From: a virus
Reading direction: 5' to 3' (one strand)
Length of the DNA: 22,987 nucleotides
Virus record (IMG/VR): IMGVR_UViG_3300022928_000128
Location: 1-22,987 of that record
The notes beneath the pieces are model-generated. The model did no database searches, was not told the DNA's origin, and worked only from the letters and a program-made list of their open reading frames with translations. A program made the position numbers and the translations under genes. Numbering within the stretch: position 1 is the stretch's first letter; each line of letters starts with the position of its first letter. This document shows positions 7,443-19,000 of the stretch, one piece after another.

Positions 7443-8506
7443 GCTATTTCTTGAGTCTGTGCCTCTATCATAAGTTCGTGCACCTGAGTTTGTATTCGGT
7501 TCTTGTCCAGTGATGTCTCGACCGACTCGATGTACGTTCTTAAAAGCGACTCTGTGTCCTCTGCTGATATGTTCTCATCTTCTACGTTCTCGCCGATAAA
7601 CTCGGAGAAGTTCTCGGCGATCTTCAACTCATGAATACTTCTACTTTGTATTCTATCTAAAAATCGATCAAAAGTAAAGCTGTTTGTCTTGTTTACGACA
7701 ACAACCTTGACAAACTTCCTGTCGAGATGGTCTAGGTTCATCTCCAAATACTGATCTTCGTTTTGTGAGTCGTCATAGGTGATCTTTTCAAATAGCGTAA
7801 CCGGATTACGCACGGGAGTTAGTTCACGTGCTTCGGTGTCAAGGACGTGAAAGTATTTCGGATCATGCGCGTCAGACCAGAAAAACTCCATCTGTGAACC
7901 AAGGTAATGAATATTCCCCTGCTGAGACTTAGTATGAAAGTGACCAGAGACTGCTAACTCAAACCGCTCAAGTATGTCAGTCTTCATGCCATGCGTACAG
8001 GGTATGCCGCGCAACATATCGAACCCTTCAAGTTCAAAGTGACCGCCGATCACATCAGCACCACAGTTCTCTAGAAACTCATAGGTTTCTTTTTCTACAT
8101 CTGGAGCAATCCAAGGGACCAAAGCAACTTTCAAACTTCCGTATTCCATCACTTTCGGTTTCATGACGATATTGACTTCATTCATGTAATGCCCGAGCAG
8201 TTCTTTCAGGGAGTTTAGTTCGTTGGTGTTTTTGTAGTAAGTATCGTGGTTTCCTGGAATGATATCCATGGTGATACCGTAGTCGCGCAGTTTCTCTAAG
8301 AATACTTTACGATTGCTGTTAAGTGCTTTGAAGTTTATGTATCGGCGGTGCTCATAGTAATCCCCAAGGTGAATGATGTTTTTAATATCATTTTCTAAAA
8401 GATACGGAAAGAACACGTCGCGGTAAAACTCCTCCTGATAATCTATGAAGATATCCGAAGAGTTCCTTATGCCACAATGAGTATCATTGAGGATTGCTAT
8501 TTTCAT
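7439..8506 (-). CDS. 47: gp47-like recombination endonuclease subunit (SbcD/Mre11 type)
   Basis: 355 residues. The five phosphoesterase motifs are in order: D8-x-H10 (NDTH), GD-x-x-E at D49 (HLGDYYEH), GNHD at 85-88, the GGH motif at H156, and GHFH with H189 and H191. These bind two metal ions in Mre11-type nucleases. It is the nuclease half of the gp46-gp47 complex for DNA end processing. The ATG overlaps the gp55 stop by 4 bases. Confidence 0.97.
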   Translation of the reverse strand: MKIAILNDTHCGIRNSSDIFIDYQEEFYRDVFFPYLLENDIKNIIHLGDYYEHRRYINFKALNSNRKVFLEKLRDYGITMDIIPGNHDTYYKNTNELNSLKELLGHYMNEVNIVMKPKVMEYGSLKVALVPWIAPDVEKETYEFLENCGADVIGGHFELEGFDMLRGIPCTHGMKTDILERFELAVSGHFHTKSQQGNIHYLGSQMEFFWSDAHDPKYFHVLDTEARELTPVRNPVTLFEKITYDDSQNEDQYLEMNLDHLDRKFVKVVVVNKTNSFTFDRFLDRIQSRSIHELKIAENFSEFIGENVEDENISAEDTESLLRTYIESVETSLDKNRIQTQVHELMIEAQTQEIA

Positions 8507-9105
8507 ACTTCTAATTCGTCCATGTCAAAGAATACTGATAGGTCAGAGTCTTGTGTCTTGCGCGCTCGCGTACGATGCGTTTTTTTGTAATCTTCGAATT
8601 TCGAATCCTTTTCCTTTATCTCGTCGATTCTCTGCCGCAAACTATCGATGAAACTTTGAATCGCACGTGCTGACTCAGGGTCTTCTTCGTTGTTAATCAT
8701 AAACTCTTCATAGCCTGACTCCGCGAGGTATTTGAGTTTGAGATCCTGTTGCTTTTTTTCTTTGGCGATTCTTCGAAGAAAAGCATACCAAGATATTTGC
8801 GTGAAGTAGGCGAATGCGTTTGGTTTGCCTGTTCGAGTTGCCGCGTCTATATCATAGTTGCGAATAGCACGGAGGCAGTTCTCTACTGCGTCCATCGCCA
8901 TTTCCTCTCGATAGGTGTACCCTGAAAAGTTTGATTTGAATGATAGTCCTTCTGCTATTCTAAGAAAGCACTGAGCGATGTAGTCGTCAACTACGGGGTT
9001 GTCCTCTCCTCTTTTTCTGCATTCGTTTGCTTTCTTTACGTAGTCTAAAACCGCCTGAGAAAATTTTGCGTTGTCGACGTAGTGTGCGTTTGCTGGTTTA
9101 TTCAT
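8503..9105 (-). CDS. 55: gp55-like sigma factor for late transcription
   Basis: 200 residues. The central part (about 40-130), with RIAEGL, FSGYTYREEM, AMDAVENCLRAI, FAYFTQISWYAFLRRI and AKEKKQQ, matches sigma region 2 as kept in gp55 of T4-like phages. gp55 directs host RNA polymerase to TATAAATA late promoters, three of which occur in this window. The C-terminus, DLSVFFDMDEL, is hydrophobic and acidic, as expected for the tail by which T4 gp55 binds the gp45 sliding clamp to couple late transcription to replication. The ATG has GGGGA upstream, and the gene begins a unit with 47 and 46. Confidence 0.93.
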   Translation of the reverse strand: MNKPANAHYVDNAKFSQAVLDYVKKANECRKRGEDNPVVDDYIAQCFLRIAEGLSFKSNFSGYTYREEMAMDAVENCLRAIRNYDIDAATRTGKPNAFAYFTQISWYAFLRRIAKEKKQQDLKLKYLAESGYEEFMINNEEDPESARAIQSFIDSLRQRIDEIKEKDSKFEDYKKTHRTRARKTQDSDLSVFFDMDELEV

Positions 9106-11952: not shown

Positions 11953-12456
11953 TTAAGAGATGTCAAAATATGTGTATCTAAATCCAACTGGTACTGTAAG
12001 GAATTCTGTGGAGTTTGCCTCAAAGTCTACGTTGCCTAATGATATGGGAAAGGCATCACGATAAACGAACTTCTTAGACGTATTGTTATGACTGCTGAGC
12101 GCGGACACTGTTATGTCGCAGAAAGTGGGTACACCGTTTTCTGTTATTCTAGCATCGTATGCGCTAGTCTGCTTTGTATTTACCATTCTTACCATCCAGT
12201 TGAAAATTTCTACATACGAATTAAAATCTTCGTCTAGTAGTATTATAACTGAAAGTTCGTCAAAAGTCAAGGTATCGCCTGGCTGCGGAACTGACTGTAT
12301 ACGCGAGGTTGTTGCGTTCTCTGCTGCCGGCAGGGAGACTGATGGATGCGAAACTGACTGAGCAAAGAACTCAAAGTTCGGATAGTTTTTCCTATCCACA
12401 TTGACTTTAAATCCTGCTTGTTGAAAGAAATTTGTGTTTTCTGTTAGGGTTGCCAT
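11953..12456 (-). CDS. 3: gp3-like tail completion/sheath stabilizer, tail-tube-like fold
   Basis: 167 residues. The segments PGDTLTFDELSVIILLDEDF and YVEIFNWMVRM match the conserved core of phage tail-tube family proteins (compare gp19 in this window, which has FEDWSITVYNDTNF and FETWMNGI). In cyanophage-type genomes the gene between 23 and uvsY is gp3, which caps the end of the tail tube and stabilises the sheath. The position supports that name better than a second true tube protein. The ATG is preceded by GGAG, and a TATAAATA late promoter lies 23 bases upstream. A paralogous tube subunit is the main alternative. Confidence 0.7.
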   Translation of the reverse strand: MATLTENTNFFQQAGFKVNVDRKNYPNFEFFAQSVSHPSVSLPAAENATTSRIQSVPQPGDTLTFDELSVIILLDEDFNSYVEIFNWMVRMVNTKQTSAYDARITENGVPTFCDITVSALSSHNNTSKKFVYRDAFPISLGNVDFEANSTEFLTVPVGFRYTYFDIS

Positions 12457-12555: not shown

Positions 12556-13899
12556 CTATGATGCAAGGATTCCGTCAACGCGGAAGATGCGGTAGTATTG
12601 GTTAGTCTTAGCAGTCGCCAATTGGTTAGTGTGTGGACCACCAACGAATGGGTTAGACGCCATGCCGTAACGAGTCTTGAACCCGATACGTGGCTGGAAG
12701 TTATCTTCGCCAACCGCACGAACCATCTGAAGAGGTACGTATGGGCAGTAGAATACACCAGCGTCATATGGGTTAGTACCCTTGAATCCAACAGTAACAT
12801 AGTCTGCTTCTGCATATGGATCAATGTATACACGCATACGACCGTTCAGTACACCTGCGAAAGTGTTACCAGTGTCGTCAACCTGAAGGTTAGCAGACAG
12901 AGCAGGACTGTAGTCAAGCATACCAGCAGCGTGCAGAGCAGTAGCAACATCAGAAGAACAGATTACTACGTTACCCTTACCGCGACGAGTTTCTTTAGCA
13001 ATGATGTTTGCTTCGCGATCGAGTTGAACCATCAGACCCTTGAACTTCTCTACAGACCAACGACCATCAGCATCAGTCTCAAGGTTGAAGATACCGTTGA
13101 TAGCAGTGTTAGACTGCAAGCAACCAGTTTTCGCCTGAGAGTTGATGGTGCGAATTACTTCGCGGTTGATTTCTGCAAGGATTTCTTGAGAAAGAATGTT
13201 CGCCAACTCTTGCTCAGCGTCAAGACCATGAATTGCTTTCAAGTCTTGAGCAAGTTCAAGAGTGTACTCTGCTTTCAACGCACGGCTCTTAGCAGTAACA
13301 GTTGACTTCTCGATTGCGAAACCCATTTCAGCGAAGGTCTCACCAACGCCGTCGCCCAATGCTTCTGCTTCAGCAGTAGTGTAAGCGTCACCAGCATAAG
13401 GACCAGTACGGTCGTTATTGAGTGAAGAGTCACCGTTAGAGTCAGTCAGACCAGAAAGACCTGAAGGACCAGTGCCGTTGCCAGTAGTAGAAGAGTCGCC
13501 AGAGAAACCGACCGCTGCTTCGTTGAACAATGCTTCGTCGCCCGCAGAAACGCCAGCTTTGGTAGTCTTGTACTGTGAACGCATCGCGAAGATGAGACCA
13601 GTAGGACCAGACATAGGTTGTACGCCACACACATCATAAGCGATGAGGTTAGGCATAGCACGACGAACGAGAGCGATCAGGACAGGATCCCAAGTGCCTA
13701 CGTTAGCAGTGTTGTTAGCAGGTGCTGCTTCTGTGAGGAAACCGCTCTCTTGAGAACGCTCTTCACGCAATGCACGCTCTTGGTTCTCAAGAACAGCAGC
13801 AGTTACTTTACGACGGTATGCATCTTTGATGTCACCCGCACTATTTTCGTCGAGGATGGGACTCCACTTCTCAACTAAAGATTGATAGTTAATATCCAT
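12556..13899 (-). CDS. 23: Major capsid protein gp23
   Basis: 447 residues, shorter than T4 gp23. WDPVLIALVRRAMPNLIAYD, GVQPMSGPTGLIFAMRS, MGFAIEKSTVTAKSRALKAEY and RGKGNVVICSSDVA are hallmark gp23 segments. It forms the hexamers of the icosahedral/prolate head. FLTE followed by AAPAN at residues 54-61 fits the (L/I)-x-E cleavage rule of the gp21 protease, giving a mature chain from A58. The ATG follows an AGGAG site 24 bases after gene 22. No late promoter lies immediately upstream, so expression probably comes from the gene 21 promoter and stops at the strong terminator downstream. Confidence 0.97.
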   Translation of the reverse strand: MDINYQSLVEKWSPILDENSAGDIKDAYRRKVTAAVLENQERALREERSQESGFLTEAAPANNTANVGTWDPVLIALVRRAMPNLIAYDVCGVQPMSGPTGLIFAMRSQYKTTKAGVSAGDEALFNEAAVGFSGDSSTTGNGTGPSGLSGLTDSNGDSSLNNDRTGPYAGDAYTTAEAEALGDGVGETFAEMGFAIEKSTVTAKSRALKAEYTLELAQDLKAIHGLDAEQELANILSQEILAEINREVIRTINSQAKTGCLQSNTAINGIFNLETDADGRWSVEKFKGLMVQLDREANIIAKETRRGKGNVVICSSDVATALHAAGMLDYSPALSANLQVDDTGNTFAGVLNGRMRVYIDPYAEADYVTVGFKGTNPYDAGVFYCPYVPLQMVRAVGEDNFQPRIGFKTRYGMASNPFVGGPHTNQLATAKTNQYYRIFRVDGILAS

Positions 13900-13922: not shown

Positions 13923-14996
13923 TTACTGGTTAAAACGCTTCAGCGCTGAGAGGTACTGAGAAGTAGAACTAGAAGTCTCGACAGTATCATCTGCCTCGCC
14001 TTCAGTTTCTTCTACGATAGACTCATCAGCAGATACTTTCTTGCTGTTGAAGTATGACTCTTTGACGGTCTTAACTTTCTTAGAGAAAGATTCTTCGTCG
14101 TCAAAGTCCACGTCTTCTACAAGAGAGCGTAATTTATCAATCTGAGTAGCAGCAAGACCTTCAGCATGCTCACGAATAATCGCTTCGCGCTGATAACCCT
14201 CAATTGCCTCAGACATTTGAATAGCACTTTCAGTAGTCTTGTTCAGAGACTCTTCGAGTTCTGCTACTTGCTGCGCTAATTCGTCAACGAGGTCGACCTT
14301 GGACTCAGGTACGTCTACATAAGATTCAGTGAACAGAGTCTTAAGACCGTTCATGAAATCTTCTGCAATTTCAGTACGCAAACCTTGCCGTACAGCAAGT
14401 TTGTTTTCTTCCATCCAGTTCTCAACCACGTAGTTAAGGTAGGAATCAACTTTCTCGACCATGTCATCTCGAGTGCGGACAATTTCCTCATCGAGTTCGG
14501 TACGATACTGTTCTTCCAATCGATCAATTTCAGTAGAGAGTTTGCTCTTAAGAGCTGCTTCAAAGATTACAGCAGTCTTGTCCTTGAACTCTTCAGAAAG
14601 AGTTGCTTCAGACTCAATCAAAGCATTCAGATCTTCAGAGAAGTCAACCTTAACTTCAACCGCACGGGTTTCTGTTACGACGTCTTCGTCTTCCATCTCA
14701 ACTTCTTCGCCCATCATTTTGTTATACGCTGCTTGAAGTTCAACCTTCTTCATAGCATTCATCTTACCATACATAGCATTTACCATACCTGCCTTGGTGC
14801 GTGGCATTGGCTCTTGCTTAGTATTGTGAGATGCAGTGCCAGTTGAAGGCAGTGGTGCTTTACCAGTTGCGTCGCCCGCTTTCGCCACAGATTTCTCTGA
14901 GTCGTCTTCGGTGCCGACTGGCATTTTTTCTGCAGCAGCTTCCACGATTTCCTGCTCGTCATCGTGGAGCTCAACATTTTCCTGTTCTGGATTCAT
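13923..14996 (-). CDS. 22: Prohead core scaffold protein gp22
   Basis: 357 residues, strongly acidic and almost entirely predicted helix/coiled coil, with no hydrophobic core segments or enzymatic motif. The middle has the helical segments DRLEEQYRTELDEEIVRTR, VDSYLNYVVENWMEENKLAV and FMNGLKTLFTESYVDVPESK, typical of gp22 in T4-like marine phages. It forms the inner scaffold on which gp23 assembles and is degraded by gp21 during maturation. IVEA near residue 17 fits the gp21 cleavage rule. It lies between protease and capsid genes, as in T4. It is longer than T4 gp22, with an extended low-complexity N-terminus. Confidence 0.92.
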   Translation of the reverse strand: MNPEQENVELHDDEQEIVEAAAEKMPVGTEDDSEKSVAKAGDATGKAPLPSTGTASHNTKQEPMPRTKAGMVNAMYGKMNAMKKVELQAAYNKMMGEEVEMEDEDVVTETRAVEVKVDFSEDLNALIESEATLSEEFKDKTAVIFEAALKSKLSTEIDRLEEQYRTELDEEIVRTRDDMVEKVDSYLNYVVENWMEENKLAVRQGLRTEIAEDFMNGLKTLFTESYVDVPESKVDLVDELAQQVAELEESLNKTTESAIQMSEAIEGYQREAIIREHAEGLAATQIDKLRSLVEDVDFDDEESFSKKVKTVKESYFNSKKVSADESIVEETEGEADDTVETSSSTSQYLSALKRFNQ

Positions 14997-15008
14997 GCTT
15001 ATCTCCTA

Positions 15009-15668
15009 TTATATGCTTTTAGTCAGTGACGAGAGGAAATTTTTAAACTCGCGAACCTGCGTCTCGTAAAGTCGCTTGCTTGGAGCTCTCTTAATTTCAG
15101 TCTCTACTTTCTCAATTACTTGAGGTTCGATGATGCCGTTATTCCAAACCCACTCAACACCTTCCATAACTCCATTAACAAATGCATTTGGCGCTGACGG
15201 ATCCTGTACGATATCGACCGCATTCAACATGAAGTCTTCTTTAACGTACATTGCATCATTTCTCTGCTCAAGACTACCCATACCACGAGTCGAGACACCT
15301 AGTCTTACACCACCGTCGAGTAAACCTTGAACGATTTTACCCATAGGAGTTTCAAGTATAGATGCCTTTCCCACCACATTATTCCCCTCGAATCGAAGGT
15401 CGGTAATGAGGTGTGAAACTTTGTCTAAGTTAACAGTTGGTCCTTCAGGGTGATTTAATTCACCGACCGCACGTTGCTTAGATACTTGTTCGTCAACGTA
15501 TTTACCAACAGCACCTTCCATGATTGCTTTTGGATAAACACGTCCGTTACGATTCTTCTTATCTGCTTGCGCAAAGACACCTTCGATGATGTACTTTTTA
15601 GTACCATCTTCCCTTTTTTCTACGATGCATTGAACATCGCTTTCGGTGTATTCGGCAATTAGTTTCAT
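15009..15668 (-). CDS. 21: Prohead core protease gp21
   Basis: 219 residues, matching T4 gp21. The segments GVFAQADKKNRNGRVYPKAIM, GELNHPEGPTVNLDKVSH and GVRLGVSTRGMGSL carry the conserved His (H73) and Ser (S126) of the herpesvirus-assemblin-like serine protease fold. gp21 cleaves scaffold, core and capsid proteins after (L/I)-x-E. A TATAAATA late promoter lies 24 bases upstream, and the ribosome-binding site (GGAAACG) is modest. Confidence 0.96.
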   Translation of the reverse strand: MKLIAEYTESDVQCIVEKREDGTKKYIIEGVFAQADKKNRNGRVYPKAIMEGAVGKYVDEQVSKQRAVGELNHPEGPTVNLDKVSHLITDLRFEGNNVVGKASILETPMGKIVQGLLDGGVRLGVSTRGMGSLEQRNDAMYVKEDFMLNAVDIVQDPSAPNAFVNGVMEGVEWVWNNGIIEPQVIEKVETEIKRAPSKRLYETQVREFKNFLSSLTKSI

Positions 15669-15715: not shown

Positions 15716-16639
15716 CTATGACAATTCTTTCATTGCTACTTCAATGCCCTTCTTGGCATCGTTCAAATTCTTGTAGGTATCAAGTTCGTCGCCGTCAATA
15801 TAAGCAACAAACCCCTTGTTTGTTTTCTTGACTTCGCCGTGCATACCCTTAATTTTTTTAGAGAACACTACGGATTTTGCTTCCCTTATATCTTGGAATG
15901 ATTTCGCACAGTCCTGACCATTTTCCGTGACTGGATTTTCATCAGCAAGAAGAGGATCCTGTTCTTCATTCATCTGAGCACCTGTAGCAAACTTTTTGAG
16001 TTCCCTATCCAGTTTAGATATATCAGACTTGCTTTTGGCAGAAAAGGCAACACCCTTATCAGTTTCGCCTTCGAAATCAATCTTCTTAGACTTTTCGTAT
16101 TTCTTTAGCAAATCGAGAGCACCTTTCATTCTCTTATCGCCGTCAAGGTGATCCAGTCTAACGTGAAACTCAACTGCTTCATCAATTTCTTCCCCCACAG
16201 ATTCAGCAACATCACCCTTACCATATGAGTATAGCGTCTTAAGATAATCGTTTGCTTTGGTGAGTTTGTTCTGAAACCACTCCTCCATATCGCCTTCTTT
16301 CTTGACACGAGACTCAATTCCGTCGAGGAAGTGACGCATAGCAGCAATCTGTTTTACTGCCATATTTGTTTCTTCTGCCCCGCCAGTATCAGCAGGATCT
16401 ACTGCTTCCATTATCTTACGACCATCAGTCTTAAGAACACGCGCCACATCTCCGACCTTGTTAACCTTGTTAACTCGATCAGCATATTTCTTTGCCGCTT
16501 GCTCTTTTTCGGAGTAGTATTTAATTTCTTCTCCGCCTTTCTTAAATTTGACAACCACGACGTATCCTGGTTTGTCAGTAAAGTCGCGTGGATCCATCGA
16601 CTCCTTTAAATGATGACGCATTTCGTCAAAGATCTTCAT
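15716..16639 (-). CDS. Prohead core/internal head protein in the gene 68 position
   Basis: 307 residues, charged and mostly helical. I do not recognise the family by sequence. It sits between gp67-like and gp21 genes, exactly where T4 has gene 68 (prohead core protein), but is about twice as long as T4 gp68. Three sites fit the gp21 protease rule: IMEA (76-79), IDEA (152-155) and IREA (251-254). They would cut it into similar-sized pieces. The C-terminal 55 residues (HGEVKKTNKGFVAYIDGDEL and on) form a compact alpha/beta unit that is common at the ends of T4-like phage proteins. It starts 14 bases inside the gp67-like gene. A core protein cut during maturation is the best reading. Confidence 0.6.
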   Translation of the reverse strand: MKIFDEMRHHLKESMDPRDFTDKPGYVVVVKFKKGGEEIKYYSEKEQAAKKYADRVNKVNKVGDVARVLKTDGRKIMEAVDPADTGGAEETNMAVKQIAAMRHFLDGIESRVKKEGDMEEWFQNKLTKANDYLKTLYSYGKGDVAESVGEEIDEAVEFHVRLDHLDGDKRMKGALDLLKKYEKSKKIDFEGETDKGVAFSAKSKSDISKLDRELKKFATGAQMNEEQDPLLADENPVTENGQDCAKSFQDIREAKSVVFSKKIKGMHGEVKKTNKGFVAYIDGDELDTYKNLNDAKKGIEVAMKELS

Positions 16640-16877
16640 CCTCGTGCTCCGTAGTTTCTGGTTCTTCTTCGACTTCCTCGACCTCTAGGGCATCTTCCAC
16701 TTCTTGGTCGAATTCGTTTTCTTCTTTGCTACCGAAAACACTAGAGGCAACACTAACTTTTTCTTGCTCTAATGCCTGATCTAATTTTTGTGCAATCAAA
16801 CCATTAAACGTATCGTTCGCGTCGTTGTATTCTTTGGAATTAATCGCGTCAATCATCTTTAAAATATCTTCACTCAT
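16626..16877 (-). CDS. 67: Prohead core protein gp67-like
   Basis: 83 residues from the ATG at 16877, chosen because AGGAG lies 9 bases upstream. A longer reading from 16949 would lie inside gene 20. The N-terminal 45 residues (SEDILKMIDAINSKEYNDAN, GLIAQKLDQALEQEKVSVAS) form a short helical domain, and the last 35 are mostly Asp/Glu. Both length and pattern match T4 gp67, an abundant prohead core protein cleaved by gp21. The start overlaps the end of gene 20 by 8 bases. Confidence 0.85.
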   Translation of the reverse strand: MSEDILKMIDAINSKEYNDANDTFNGLIAQKLDQALEQEKVSVASSVFGSKEENEFDQEVEDALEVEEVEEEPETTEHEDEDL

Positions 16878-18402
16878 TATCTTCTTCTCCTGCAGGTTCT
16901 GCTTCAATATCCATGTTATCGCCGTCTTCCGGCGGGTCTTCTTTCTCAACGTCTTTCTGCAATTCTTTTATGTCATCGTCAGAAAGTTGTAGAACATTAC
17001 GCATGACCCACTCTTGTGTAAAGTAAGTGCCAACATATTGAGAAATTTGATCAAGGGTAGCAATTCTTTCACGTAGTATTTCACTATCCTTCAATTCAGT
17101 AAAGTGATTATCACGCATATAGTCAACGAAGATATCGCTTTTCATTTCTTCCCAGTCTTGTTCGGTAATAATATTCTTAAGCAGTAATTGCTTTTTCAGA
17201 ATACCTAAGAACAACTTACCGAAACGAGCGCGAAGGCGATCGACAAACTTCTGAAACTTCACTTCGTCCCGAGATATCTCGCTGGTTCGCCCGAGCGAGA
17301 ACTGCGCTTCTTGTTCTAGACGGTTTACTGGTACGTTCAACGCACGGTACACGCGCTTCTGGAAATAGATTATATCATCGATCTGACCAAGGTTTTCGCC
17401 ACCAGGAAGCGTAGATATCTCTGTACCTTTACCACCTTCCCTACGTGGTAACCAAAAGTCCTCAAGCATAGACATATGCTTTCGATCGTCTTTCAGTTCG
17501 CCCGTGTTGGCGTCATATACAAGTTTATTTCTGTATCGCGCCATAATGTCTTTTAGATATTGTTCTGCTTTACCGCGTGGCAAGTTACCCACGTCGATAT
17601 AAAAGATTCTTCGCTCAGGTGCACGTGAGAGACGGTAGATAACCAAACTGTCTTCCATCATGCGCAACTGATTAATTGGTTTAATTGCCTTATGAAGATA
17701 AGAAACCACTCGACGCTTATTCTCGTCTAGCAAACCGGACGTAACATAACTGACGCTGTCAGTAGAAAGTTTGATTACATTGGTTTTGTTGCCTGGTTTT
17801 TCTTCATAGATATAAAACTCTTTGACCTCATCAACAACTTTCACACCACTCTTCTGGTCAGTCTTATGCTTTACTTCCTTGACCTTTCTTATCTTAGACG
17901 AGTCAATATAACGTATTTCTTGAATGCCTGCCTTTTCGTTGCCGGCATCGACAACCAAGTGGTGATATATTCTTCCGTCAATGTACCAAGAACGAAAGAT
18001 GTCATGCCCATAGTCATTAAAGTTGAGCATGGAATAAATGTTATCGAACTCTTCCTGAATTTTTTTCTTGACTGACTCCGATGTTTCGACTTCGTCAAGT
18101 GAGAGTTGTACAGATGCTTTGTTATCGCCAGTGACAATTGATTCGTTGACGATTTCTTCGATCGCCATGTCAACTTCTGGATGCTGTGCAACGCCACGAT
18201 ACTTGCGTATAAGTTGCAAGTTATCCTTAGCATTCGCACCGCCATCCATATCAACATAGTAACCATAATGATGCCCCGACGCAGTAACGTATCCCGCGCC
18301 ATCTTCGTCAGTAGGAGGAACGACAGAAACAAGTTTTTCTGCTTGCTTCTCTTTCTTCCTTTTGATTTCGAAACCAAATATGTTGAAAGTTGAATCGGCC
18401 AT
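16870..18402 (-). CDS. 20: Portal vertex protein gp20
   Basis: 510 residues, close to T4 gp20 (524). The segments QLRMMEDSLVIYRLSRAPERR, FYIDVGNLPRGKAEQYLKDI, WLPRREGGKGTEISTLPGG and LNVPVNRLEQE are the most conserved parts of T4-type portals. Twelve copies form the ring through which DNA enters and leaves the head, and it binds the terminase and neck. The C-terminus is acidic. The ATG is preceded by AGGAAT, and the gene follows the gene 19 terminator. Confidence 0.97.
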   Translation of the reverse strand: MADSTFNIFGFEIKRKKEKQAEKLVSVVPPTDEDGAGYVTASGHHYGYYVDMDGGANAKDNLQLIRKYRGVAQHPEVDMAIEEIVNESIVTGDNKASVQLSLDEVETSESVKKKIQEEFDNIYSMLNFNDYGHDIFRSWYIDGRIYHHLVVDAGNEKAGIQEIRYIDSSKIRKVKEVKHKTDQKSGVKVVDEVKEFYIYEEKPGNKTNVIKLSTDSVSYVTSGLLDENKRRVVSYLHKAIKPINQLRMMEDSLVIYRLSRAPERRIFYIDVGNLPRGKAEQYLKDIMARYRNKLVYDANTGELKDDRKHMSMLEDFWLPRREGGKGTEISTLPGGENLGQIDDIIYFQKRVYRALNVPVNRLEQEAQFSLGRTSEISRDEVKFQKFVDRLRARFGKLFLGILKKQLLLKNIITEQDWEEMKSDIFVDYMRDNHFTELKDSEILRERIATLDQISQYVGTYFTQEWVMRNVLQLSDDDIKELQKDVEKEDPPEDGDNMDIEAEPAGEEDNE

Positions 18403-18472: not shown

Positions 18473-19000
18473 CTAGGATGTAGTATCCGAAGTCCAGTAC
18501 TGATACGCGATCGTAACTTCAAACTCTTCGATCGCACCTGCCTGATCGTAAGTAAGTTCGATTGGTGAAACGGTTATCGGAAACGCCCCACGAAGCTGAT
18601 ACGTCTTTAATACGTCACCGTTCTTGTCTAATTGACGAACCTGCATATCTGATTGATATGCAGTAGGTGAAGTAAGACCGCTATTTTCTTCATGAGCATT
18701 GATACCGTTCATCCAAGTCTCGAATGAATTGCGAACCGAGAAGTTCGTATCGTTGTAAACAGTGATAGACCAGTCTTCGAAAGTCCTATCTCCTGCTACC
18801 TTGACCTCACGACCACGGAACAATACGGGGATTGTTGCGATCGTTGATCCTGGCATGTTTGTCGCGCGACACATAAAGTTCGTCAGTTCGGTGTCACCGC
18901 CAGCGTATGCTGGAAATACTATGTTGACATCGAAGAGGTTGGCGCGAGCGCCACCTCCTGACAGTTTACCTTTAAAGTCATCTACTCTTAAAATTGGCAT
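18473..19000 (-). CDS. 19: Tail tube protein gp19
   Basis: 175 residues, against 163 in T4. The N-terminus DDFKGKLSGGGARANLFDV and the segments CRATNMPGSTIATIPV, FRGREVKVAGDRTFEDWSIT and FETWMNGIN are typical of T4-like tail tube subunits. Stacked hexamers form the inner tube within the sheath, through which DNA is ejected. It lies just after the sheath gene (12-base gap with a GGAGA site) and before a strong hairpin terminator. Confidence 0.95.
   Translation of the reverse strand: MPILRVDDFKGKLSGGGARANLFDVNIVFPAYAGGDTELTNFMCRATNMPGSTIATIPVLFRGREVKVAGDRTFEDWSITVYNDTNFSVRNSFETWMNGINAHEENSGLTSPTAYQSDMQVRQLDKNGDVLKTYQLRGAFPITVSPIELTYDQAGAIEEFEVTIAYQYWTSDTTS

Follow-up and report, generated by a model that had tools for sequence, protein, structure and literature searches.

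Introduction

The closest described precedents come from phage T4. To our knowledge, few phage proteins are known to be injected to counter host defences; the T4 internal proteins are among them, and every T4 example is the product of a single gene. In the T4 record, the IPI leader reads MKTFKEF, with ITEA at residues 17–20, and IPII and IPIII both start MKTYQEFIAEA. Packaging has been assayed with GFP fused to the IPIII leader. Cutting IPI (gene of 288 bases) at ITEA leaves 76 of its 95 residues, which matches the size of 76 residues given for mature IPI* in the relevant extract of PMC3012670. The parts of PMC9026906 that concern T4 describe core proteins that are cut into pieces, most of which leave the head, and internal proteins such as IPIII that stay. 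For targeting to the capsid, the same parts single out an aromatic residue at position 4 and a hydrophobic residue at position 7 as the positions that matter. They also state that, in IPIII, Asp at the cut prevents processing while targeting still takes place.

Here we describe a gene from a sea-water relative of phage T4, carried on a 22,987-nucleotide stretch of DNA (the window). It sits in the slot of T4 gene 68 and strings together small modules that recur in other phages. The gene probably encodes an internal-head polyprotein that would be cut by the prohead protease gp21 and packaged, a variant of the T4 internal-protein system.

A long gene in the gene 68 slot

The window holds a T4-like head cluster on the minus strand: gp19 (phrog_45), the gp20 portal (16870..18402; phrog_213), a gp67-like prohead core protein (16626..16949; phrog_1064, E = 8e-6), the 307-aa protein studied here (15716..16639), the gp21 prohead protease, which is the presumed cutter (15009..15668; Peptidase_S77, phrog_207), the gp22 scaffold (13923..14996) and the gp23 capsid protein (12556..13899). 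Genes for gp16, gp17 and gp18 precede the cluster and were named from matches to annotated S-SM2 and C48C1 genes. The phrog_1064 match runs from residue 31, and the real start of the gp67-like gene is probably inside its ORF, close to the end of gp20. Two tail-tube-like genes, both phrog_45, lie at 11953–12456 and 18473–19000, one after gp23 and one after gp18.

The target ORF lies between the gp67-like gene and gp21, in T4-like order, where a sequence-only reading of this DNA had already placed it. That reading also judged the protein far longer than T4 gp68 and unlike it. Both judgements hold: it has 307 residues against 141, and BLASTP gave no alignment at E ≤ 100. A profile of its C-terminal module (module D, below) likewise gave no significant match to T4 gp68 (E = 1.8). 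The full frame is also found in loci L004 (100%) and L005 (99%), and residues 1–153 recur in L006, where the frame is open to the contig end; a one-off assembly error is thereby excluded. The gp21 of the window is 78% identical to that of C48C1 (14633–15292), while the gene just upstream is much longer in the window; conservation thus extends to the presumed cutter and not to the substrate. P-HM2 and ACG-2014e have a single small gene between gp20 and gp21. Extra ORFs of about 210–265 aa occur upstream of gp21 in other relatives (L118 2094–2846, L119 1844–2599, L121 4160–4798 and L047 2777–3571), and the interval between genes 67 and 68 is therefore a site of gene gain.

Sequence searches of Pfam and PHROGs with the target, and of the PDB with module D, assigned no family; the best Pfam match (E = 0.13) fell short of the cut-off. 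AlphaFold gave the whole target a mean pLDDT of 49, with block means of 52–80 in module C and 80–86 in module D and values mostly below 50 elsewhere; module D modelled alone with its homologues reached 77.7. Foldseek returned nothing at E ≤ 0.001 for either the whole-target or the module D model. VIA-align ranked the methane monooxygenase inhibitory subunit first for module D (Z 6.4), followed by tyrosinase caddie proteins (4.6–5.3). These values lie below the Z of 8 where the tool warns of chance, and the matches were rejected as a source of function. Among 53 module D homologues, Pfam gave weak matches to Phage_Y01A (13 proteins, best E 7e-4), Arm-DNA-bind_4 (11) and DUF2188 (7), and none for the window's own copy; these matches were left unused.

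Candidate protease sites in the target

Substrates of gp21 carry L/I-x-E before the cut bond, and the target has four strict sites of this form. Three had been listed previously, at their correct positions (IMEA, 76–79; IDEA, 152–155; IREA, 251–254); the list was incomplete, as LKES at 11–14 is equally strict. Weaker candidates are VAES (144–147), MNEE (223–226) and VTEN (237–240). Writing the cut bond as a slash, the P1 glutamates are encoded on the minus strand at 16406..16408 (E78, IME/A), 16202..16204 (E146, candidate VAE/S, near the right edge of cassette B described below), 16178..16180 (E154, IDE/A) and 15965..15967 (E225, candidate MNE/E, which is MTE/A in L013 and LHE/A in L011). The fragment lengths of 78, 76, 99 and 54 residues derived from the first three sites are correct, and the additional candidate cuts (LKE/S after 13, VAE/S after 146, MNE/E after 225) would divide the chain further. 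The likely folded pieces span about 14–78, 79–146, 155–225 and 254–307.

The target contains four copies of [IL]xE[ASG], compared with 0.60 ± 0.76 in 20,000 shuffles (p = 0.0022, or about 0.003 in a test covering 18 selected window proteins). Controls with I, L, V or M at P3 were near expectation, at 1 versus 1.25 for D at P1 and 1 versus 1.90 for K. Three of the 18 proteins fell below p = 0.05, uncorrected: the target, the gp22 scaffold (4 versus 1.17, p = 0.03) and the ORF at 8503–9105 (2 versus 0.37, p = 0.046), which we take to be a gp55-type sigma factor. The target sites look like real prohead-protease sites, and gp21 itself would be the protease that cuts them.

The ordinary gene 68 product

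Module D, residues 254–307 (15719..15880, minus strand), is the gp68 domain proper, with four strands and a helix predicted. Loci were fetched by gp21, keeping the best 80 of 596 relatives (596 of 599 candidate stretches were relatives), and among the matches listed a module D profile recovered 74 ORFs, 60 of them distinct, from all loci collected. In these matches, the slot-68 ORFs outside the window's species are at most 109 residues long from stop to stop, and most measure 65–75 from Met; the typical product of about 70 aa starts MKxFxx(I/L)RE or a close variant of it. The leader is visible in 52 of the 60 distinct ORFs listed, the remaining eight being truncated or unfitting, and [IL]xE stands in register in 44 of the 52. 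Of the eight misses, five place the E a residue further on (LSE, MVE) and one reads IRK; the other two belong to the window's species, where the scan took the new N-terminus and the buried copy is IREA. The P1' residue after the leader is small in just 25 of the 44. In sequence, the slot-68 leader MKxFxxIRE resembles the capsid-targeting sequence of the T4 internal proteins.

Residues 245–307 of the target align with 53 other slot-68 proteins, with both the FxxIRE leader and the D domain present; for comparison, the module D profile reaches E 7e-18 to 8e-18 when run on L005 and L004, which encode the same protein. The target departs from the 65–75-aa form with an N-terminal leader in that its leader is internal, at 245–254 (AKSFQDIREA; 15878..15907, minus strand; IRE/A after E253), behind three modules. 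Because slot-68 proteins start MKxFxx(I/L)RE, IREA at 251–254 is the old N-terminal site, and AKSFQDIREA, which lacks the start Met, is its relic. The C-terminal piece alone is the clade's own gene-68 product. Instead of one gp68 cut in four, as first proposed, the gene thus consists of a gp68 domain of ~54 residues with its old leader and three foreign modules fused in front.

Three modules shared with other phages

The 250 residues ahead of IREA are three modules, which other phages carry in different orders. On the minus strand, module A covers residues 14–78 (16406..16600), module B residues 79–154 (16178..16405; conserved core 79–146) and module C residues 155–225 (15965..16177). The order A-B-C-D is that of the window's species; L009 has B-A and L011 has A-C-B. 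Module A also occurs alone amid other sequence, by which it is then followed, in L037 to L045 (some of them fragments), module C alone in L013 and in L029 to L034, and module B alone in several loci. Because a joint MAFFT alignment put A or D segments on other modules, the four were treated separately.

Named phages show partial matches only. By tblastn, residues 79–148 match HTVC008M, 41–138 match S-SM2 weakly (E 7e-3) and 243–305 match C48C1; in the same collection of named phages, modules A and C searched as single sequences matched nothing at E ≤ 0.1. Pattern scans of IMG/VR, which detect close relatives only, found overlapping sets of 23 loci for the whole protein, 10 for module C, 13 for module A and 3 for module D. 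Modules A (pI 9.5), C (8.9) and D (9.3) are basic and could therefore sit against DNA; module B and the 226–253 linker are acidic.

DNA cassettes and their edges

Two of the modules are shared at the DNA level with abrupt limits. Cassette B, 212 nt long (16197..16408, minus strand), is identical to L009 and L007 at 209/212 positions (99%), and there it forms part of a different gene. The 75 bases on either side match those loci at 29–35%, as expected of unrelated sequence. The cassette begins at the E78 codon (IME/A) and ends in the V148 codon, just past VAE/S. Cassette C, 220 nt long (15964..16183, minus strand), matches L013 1082–1301 at 212/220 positions (96%), with flanks at 28–31%; it begins at D153 (IDE/A) and ends at E226, where L013 has MTE/A. 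Both cassettes have their edges at candidate cuts or no more than about two residues away. These edges show that the joints are reused and not, by themselves, that they are cut, since the shared E-A pair partly creates the agreement. Of the 70 codons of cassette B, 3 differ from its copy, all of them synonymously. In cassette C, the L013 copy shows 6 non-synonymous and 0 synonymous changes in 73 codons, a hint of diversifying change in a set of codon differences too small to test.

A scan of 2136 ORFs yielded 76 pairs with two sharp edges. Pairs of gp23 orthologues, which gaps have probably split, account for 46 of these. The other 30 fall into eight families, grouped by eye; one is taken as a tail-fibre pair, and the remaining seven lie in mosaic or unnamed genes. 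The motif [ILVM]xE[ASGT] is at the edge in at least one partner in 5/8 families on the left and 3/8 on the right, and a bare E[ASGT] lies within three residues of the edge in 5/8 and 4/8; the background per protein at random positions in the same ORFs is 4% for the motif and 10% for bare E[ASGT]. Among the five families beyond A, B and C, the motif is found on the left in 2 and on the right in 0. Because families A, B and C derive from the target's own modules, independent support from edges is modest.

The surveyed slot-68 genes, among the matches listed, carry the N-terminal extension in the window's species alone (the window, L004, L005 and L006). Such confinement is what one would expect of a recent accident in one phage species that dropped three stray, useless cassettes into gene 68. 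An accident of this kind is nonetheless very unlikely, in that L004 and L005 keep the frame whole and L006 keeps it open as far as its contig runs, cleavable sites are retained at the junctions, and the same modules persist in other phages.

Motif statistics across module carriers

The sequence-only reading took conservation of the sites in homologues as a measure of its proposal, and the sites do recur there. Ahead of module A, E followed by S or T is present in 9/9 copies, with a hydrophobic P3 in 8/9 (two of the copies being from the window's species), and the module ends in IHE/A or IME/A in 7/9 copies, or 5/7 without the window's species. Counting distinct module copies, [ILVM]xE[ASGT] occupies the upstream joint in 8/9 copies of A, 7/17 of B and 4/8 of C, and the downstream joint in 7/9, 10/17 and 3/8, respectively. 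Three B copies with a late profile start were excluded from the upstream counts, and three with fewer than three residues after the module from the downstream counts. Without the window's species, the upstream figures are 6/7, 4/14 and 3/7 and the downstream figures 5/7, 7/14 and 3/7. Control joints with D for E number 0 upstream of A, B and C alike, and 0, 3 and 0 downstream. The E-A pair ahead of module B is widely kept, and the residue two before E is often non-hydrophobic.

The 26 non-redundant carriers (of 47) are related, so that their counts are not independent. They hold 63 copies of [ILVM]xE[ASG], compared with 23.9 ± 4.6 after shuffling. Of the 202 homology boundaries, 49 have the motif within 6 residues, against 18.9 ± 4.2 for random positions. 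Versions of the motif with D, K or Q at P1, or with a bulky P1', lack this boundary excess, and D at P1 occurs 10 times in the 26 carriers against 24.5 expected. When each of 110 contexts is counted once, I, L, V or M stands at P3 in 38%, compared with a background of 17%, and in 7% at P2 and 20% at P4; in the D, K and E-bulky controls the P3 share is 12–20%. After modules A–D were masked and homologous stretches removed, the remaining 3758 residues still held 19 motifs versus 9.3 ± 3.0 (p = 0.002). In this masked test the count for I or L alone at P3 was not significant (7 versus 4.8, p = 0.21), and the K control came near the line (26 versus 19.6, p = 0.08). Since the masked excess holds for ILVM and not for I/L alone, the signature is real but looser than the T4 L/I rule. 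The idea that all joints are strict gp21 sites was dropped on the I/L result of the masked test and on the 7/17 upstream of module B: the strict (I/L)-x-E rule assumed at the outset describes the four target sites, and many homologous junctions break it.

Motif counts per protein in HTVC008M and C48C1 are too small to rank mosaic genes reliably. The module B carrier of HTVC008M lies outside the 24 top-ranked ORFs, and in C48C1 the homologue of the window ORF at 8503–9105 ranks first, followed by gp22.

Composition alone might give rise to such a signal if the protein were modular and uncut, with E-rich flexible linkers where shuffled domains meet and the motif as a by-product. Many joints are indeed acidic runs, and several junctions lack a hydrophobic P3. 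We nevertheless consider this quite unlikely: D at P1 falls well short of its expected number and shows no boundary excess, nor does a bulky P1'; the hydrophobic peak is confined to P3; and gp21 adjoins the target, while gp23 carries one strict site, FLTE/AAPAN, whose LTE/A matches.

Candidate capsid-targeting leaders and a possible link to virions

The first 13 residues of the target (16601..16639, minus strand) form a candidate capsid-targeting leader, MKIFDEMRHHLKE, with a cut at LKE/S, that resembles T4 IPI. Its start, MKIFDEM, has F4 and M7, and the buried AKSFQDI fits likewise. The N-terminus fails the capsid-targeting (CTS) pattern used in the scans below and is IPI-like only; LKE/S at 11–14 lies three residues later than the IPII and IPIII site (8–11) and earlier than that of IPI (17–20).

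Taking up to the fourth ATG or GTG of each ORF as a possible start, we found 48 CTS-like leaders in eight contigs versus 18.9 expected (the sum of per-contig shuffle means). The excess is clear in C48C1 (14 versus 3.6) and G006 (8 versus 1.6), reaches p of about 0.01 in G004 and G005, is weak in G002 and G003, and is absent in G001 (3 versus 3.5) and in HTVC008M, itself a module B carrier (3 versus 2.9). Control patterns on the eight contigs, which had no shuffles of their own, gave 18 for D and 33 for K. Seven genes with the CTS-like leader pattern lie within C48C1 61,824–68,408, and these seven include a DUF6267 protein, a cytidylyltransferase and a DUF5824 module. Three of the scan starts compared in C48C1 (63448, 14434 and 66817) differ from the annotated ones (63514, 14491 and 66970). 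Each annotated start has an in-frame start upstream of it that would take in the leader; the annotation probably trims leaders. Gene clusters in which several genes, a cytidylyltransferase included, carry T4-like capsid-targeting leaders are seen at C48C1 61824–68405 (L144 1824–8405) and in P-SSM7 (L180 3261–6003), and these genes look to encode injected proteins akin to T4 Alt.

Mosaic genes outside slot 68 adjoin, or lie one gene from, a cytidylyltransferase-like gene (phrog_3041) in all four loci scanned (HTVC008M, L031, L025 and L046). Cyanophage cytidylyltransferases start MKKFSAFLTEA (P-SSM7) or MKKFSAFLSEA (Syn9, P-RSM1), and that of P-SSM7 is annotated as cluster T4-GC190. A P-SSM7 protein of cluster T4-GC119 starts MKTYSQFIEEG. 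The annotation T4-GC119 is shared by the S-SM2 protein SSM2_109, which carries module B in divergent form; P-SSM7, S-SM2 and HTVC008M are all isolates. Virion data exist for S-SM1, Syn9 and S-PM2. In the portion of PMC3037559 that treats virion proteins, the T4-GC190 cytidylyltransferase is reported from purified S-SM1 virions and was undetected in an earlier S-PM2 virion study. The T4-GC190 detection comes nearest to experimental support; it bears on relatives and on a neighbouring gene rather than on the target.

These loci also bear on whether the modules are mere filler in a sacrificial core protein that, like T4 gp67, gp68 and gp22, would shape the core, be chopped by gp21 and mostly leave as pieces ahead of DNA entry. 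The position of the gene between gp67 and gp21 suits such a role, as do the motif-rich gp22 and the many fragments of T4 core proteins that mostly leave the head in the T4 account of PMC9026906. Yet modules A, B and C each hold together as a conserved unit and are present in other proteins, no gp16–gp23 match flanks the module B loci L007 to L026, and the four scanned mosaic loci are near a cytidylyltransferase gene instead. Moreover, the absence of non-synonymous change in cassette B indicates that its sequence is kept, and other phages manage with a 70-aa gp68. A purely sacrificial role is accordingly unlikely.

Proposed pathway and comparison with known systems

We favour the cut polyprotein and propose the following pathway. 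The target N-terminus would act as a capsid-targeting sequence like that of the T4 internal proteins (in relatives, this would be the leader matching residues 245–254) and would carry the chain into the prohead core. There, gp21 would cut after the Glu of the (I/L/V/M)-x-E sites, freeing the targeting peptide and about four small modules, namely A, B, C and the gp68 domain D. The freed modules would stay as small internal proteins, some perhaps to be ejected with the DNA. As the core fragments of T4 mostly leave the head (PMC9026906, in its T4 sections), some pieces here may well be lost too, B and the linker for example. Between phages, modules would be gained, lost and reordered as DNA cassettes ending at or near protease sites, and because the cassettes end there, new fusions would still be cleavable into intact pieces. 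If the pieces have a role in the host, it is most likely early host takeover or anti-defence, as with T4 IPI and Alt.

A broader proposal is plausible but tentative. Marine T4-like phages might carry a combinatorial payload, in which cassettes for small host-acting modules, bounded by prohead-protease sites, travel between genes and phages, and in which any string of them behind one capsid-targeting leader is loaded, cut and ejected as separate proteins; gene 68 of the window would be a recently built example. If true, a chain of modules exchanged as cassettes where the head protease cuts it would offer evolution a simple way to alter what is injected, and a single gene may provide the particle with several small internal proteins. 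The leader together with [ILVM]xE[ASG] joints would also provide a sequence rule for virion-carried effectors among unannotated marine phage genes. The leader pattern already picks the cytidylyltransferase family, independently reported in cyanophage virions in the cited part of PMC3037559.

Among the PMC matches listed, no title deals with capsid-targeting leaders or protease-bounded modules in marine phages, subscription papers and preprints lying outside that search, and capsid targeting and cyanophages came together only in PMC9026906. The target nonetheless has several partial counterparts. Many head proteins of the giant phages phiKZ, 201phi2-1 and SPN3US are also cut after Glu by a prohead protease, but the pertinent sections of PMC9026906 do not report cassette shuffling at cut sites; we set these phages beside the target by description. 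Polyvalent proteins, as characterised in excerpts of PMC5512222, are likewise many-domain chains thought to be carried into the host and partly freed by proteolysis, but they have an embedded peptidase and enzymatic domains. For the target, in contrast, the presumed cutter is a separate head protease, and the modules are about 55–75 aa long, with sequence searches and fold searches, the latter on models of largely low confidence, giving no clear match to an enzyme family. The cyanophage T4-GC190 and T4-GC119 proteins have comparable leaders in P-SSM7 but occupy another gene position, and T4-GC190 has an enzyme domain. T4 gp68 shares the slot between gp67 and gp21, but not the sequence or the length.

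The T4 internal proteins IPI, IPII, IPIII and Alt come closest, with a short leader, F or Y at position 4, a hydrophobic residue at position 7 and Glu at the cut, which gp21 makes. Each of them, however, has its own gene and an N-terminal cut, whereas here modules are joined, candidate cuts are internal and swapping takes place near the cuts. Module shuffling at or near protease joints is thus best filed as a new element over the T4 internal-protein and gp21 system.
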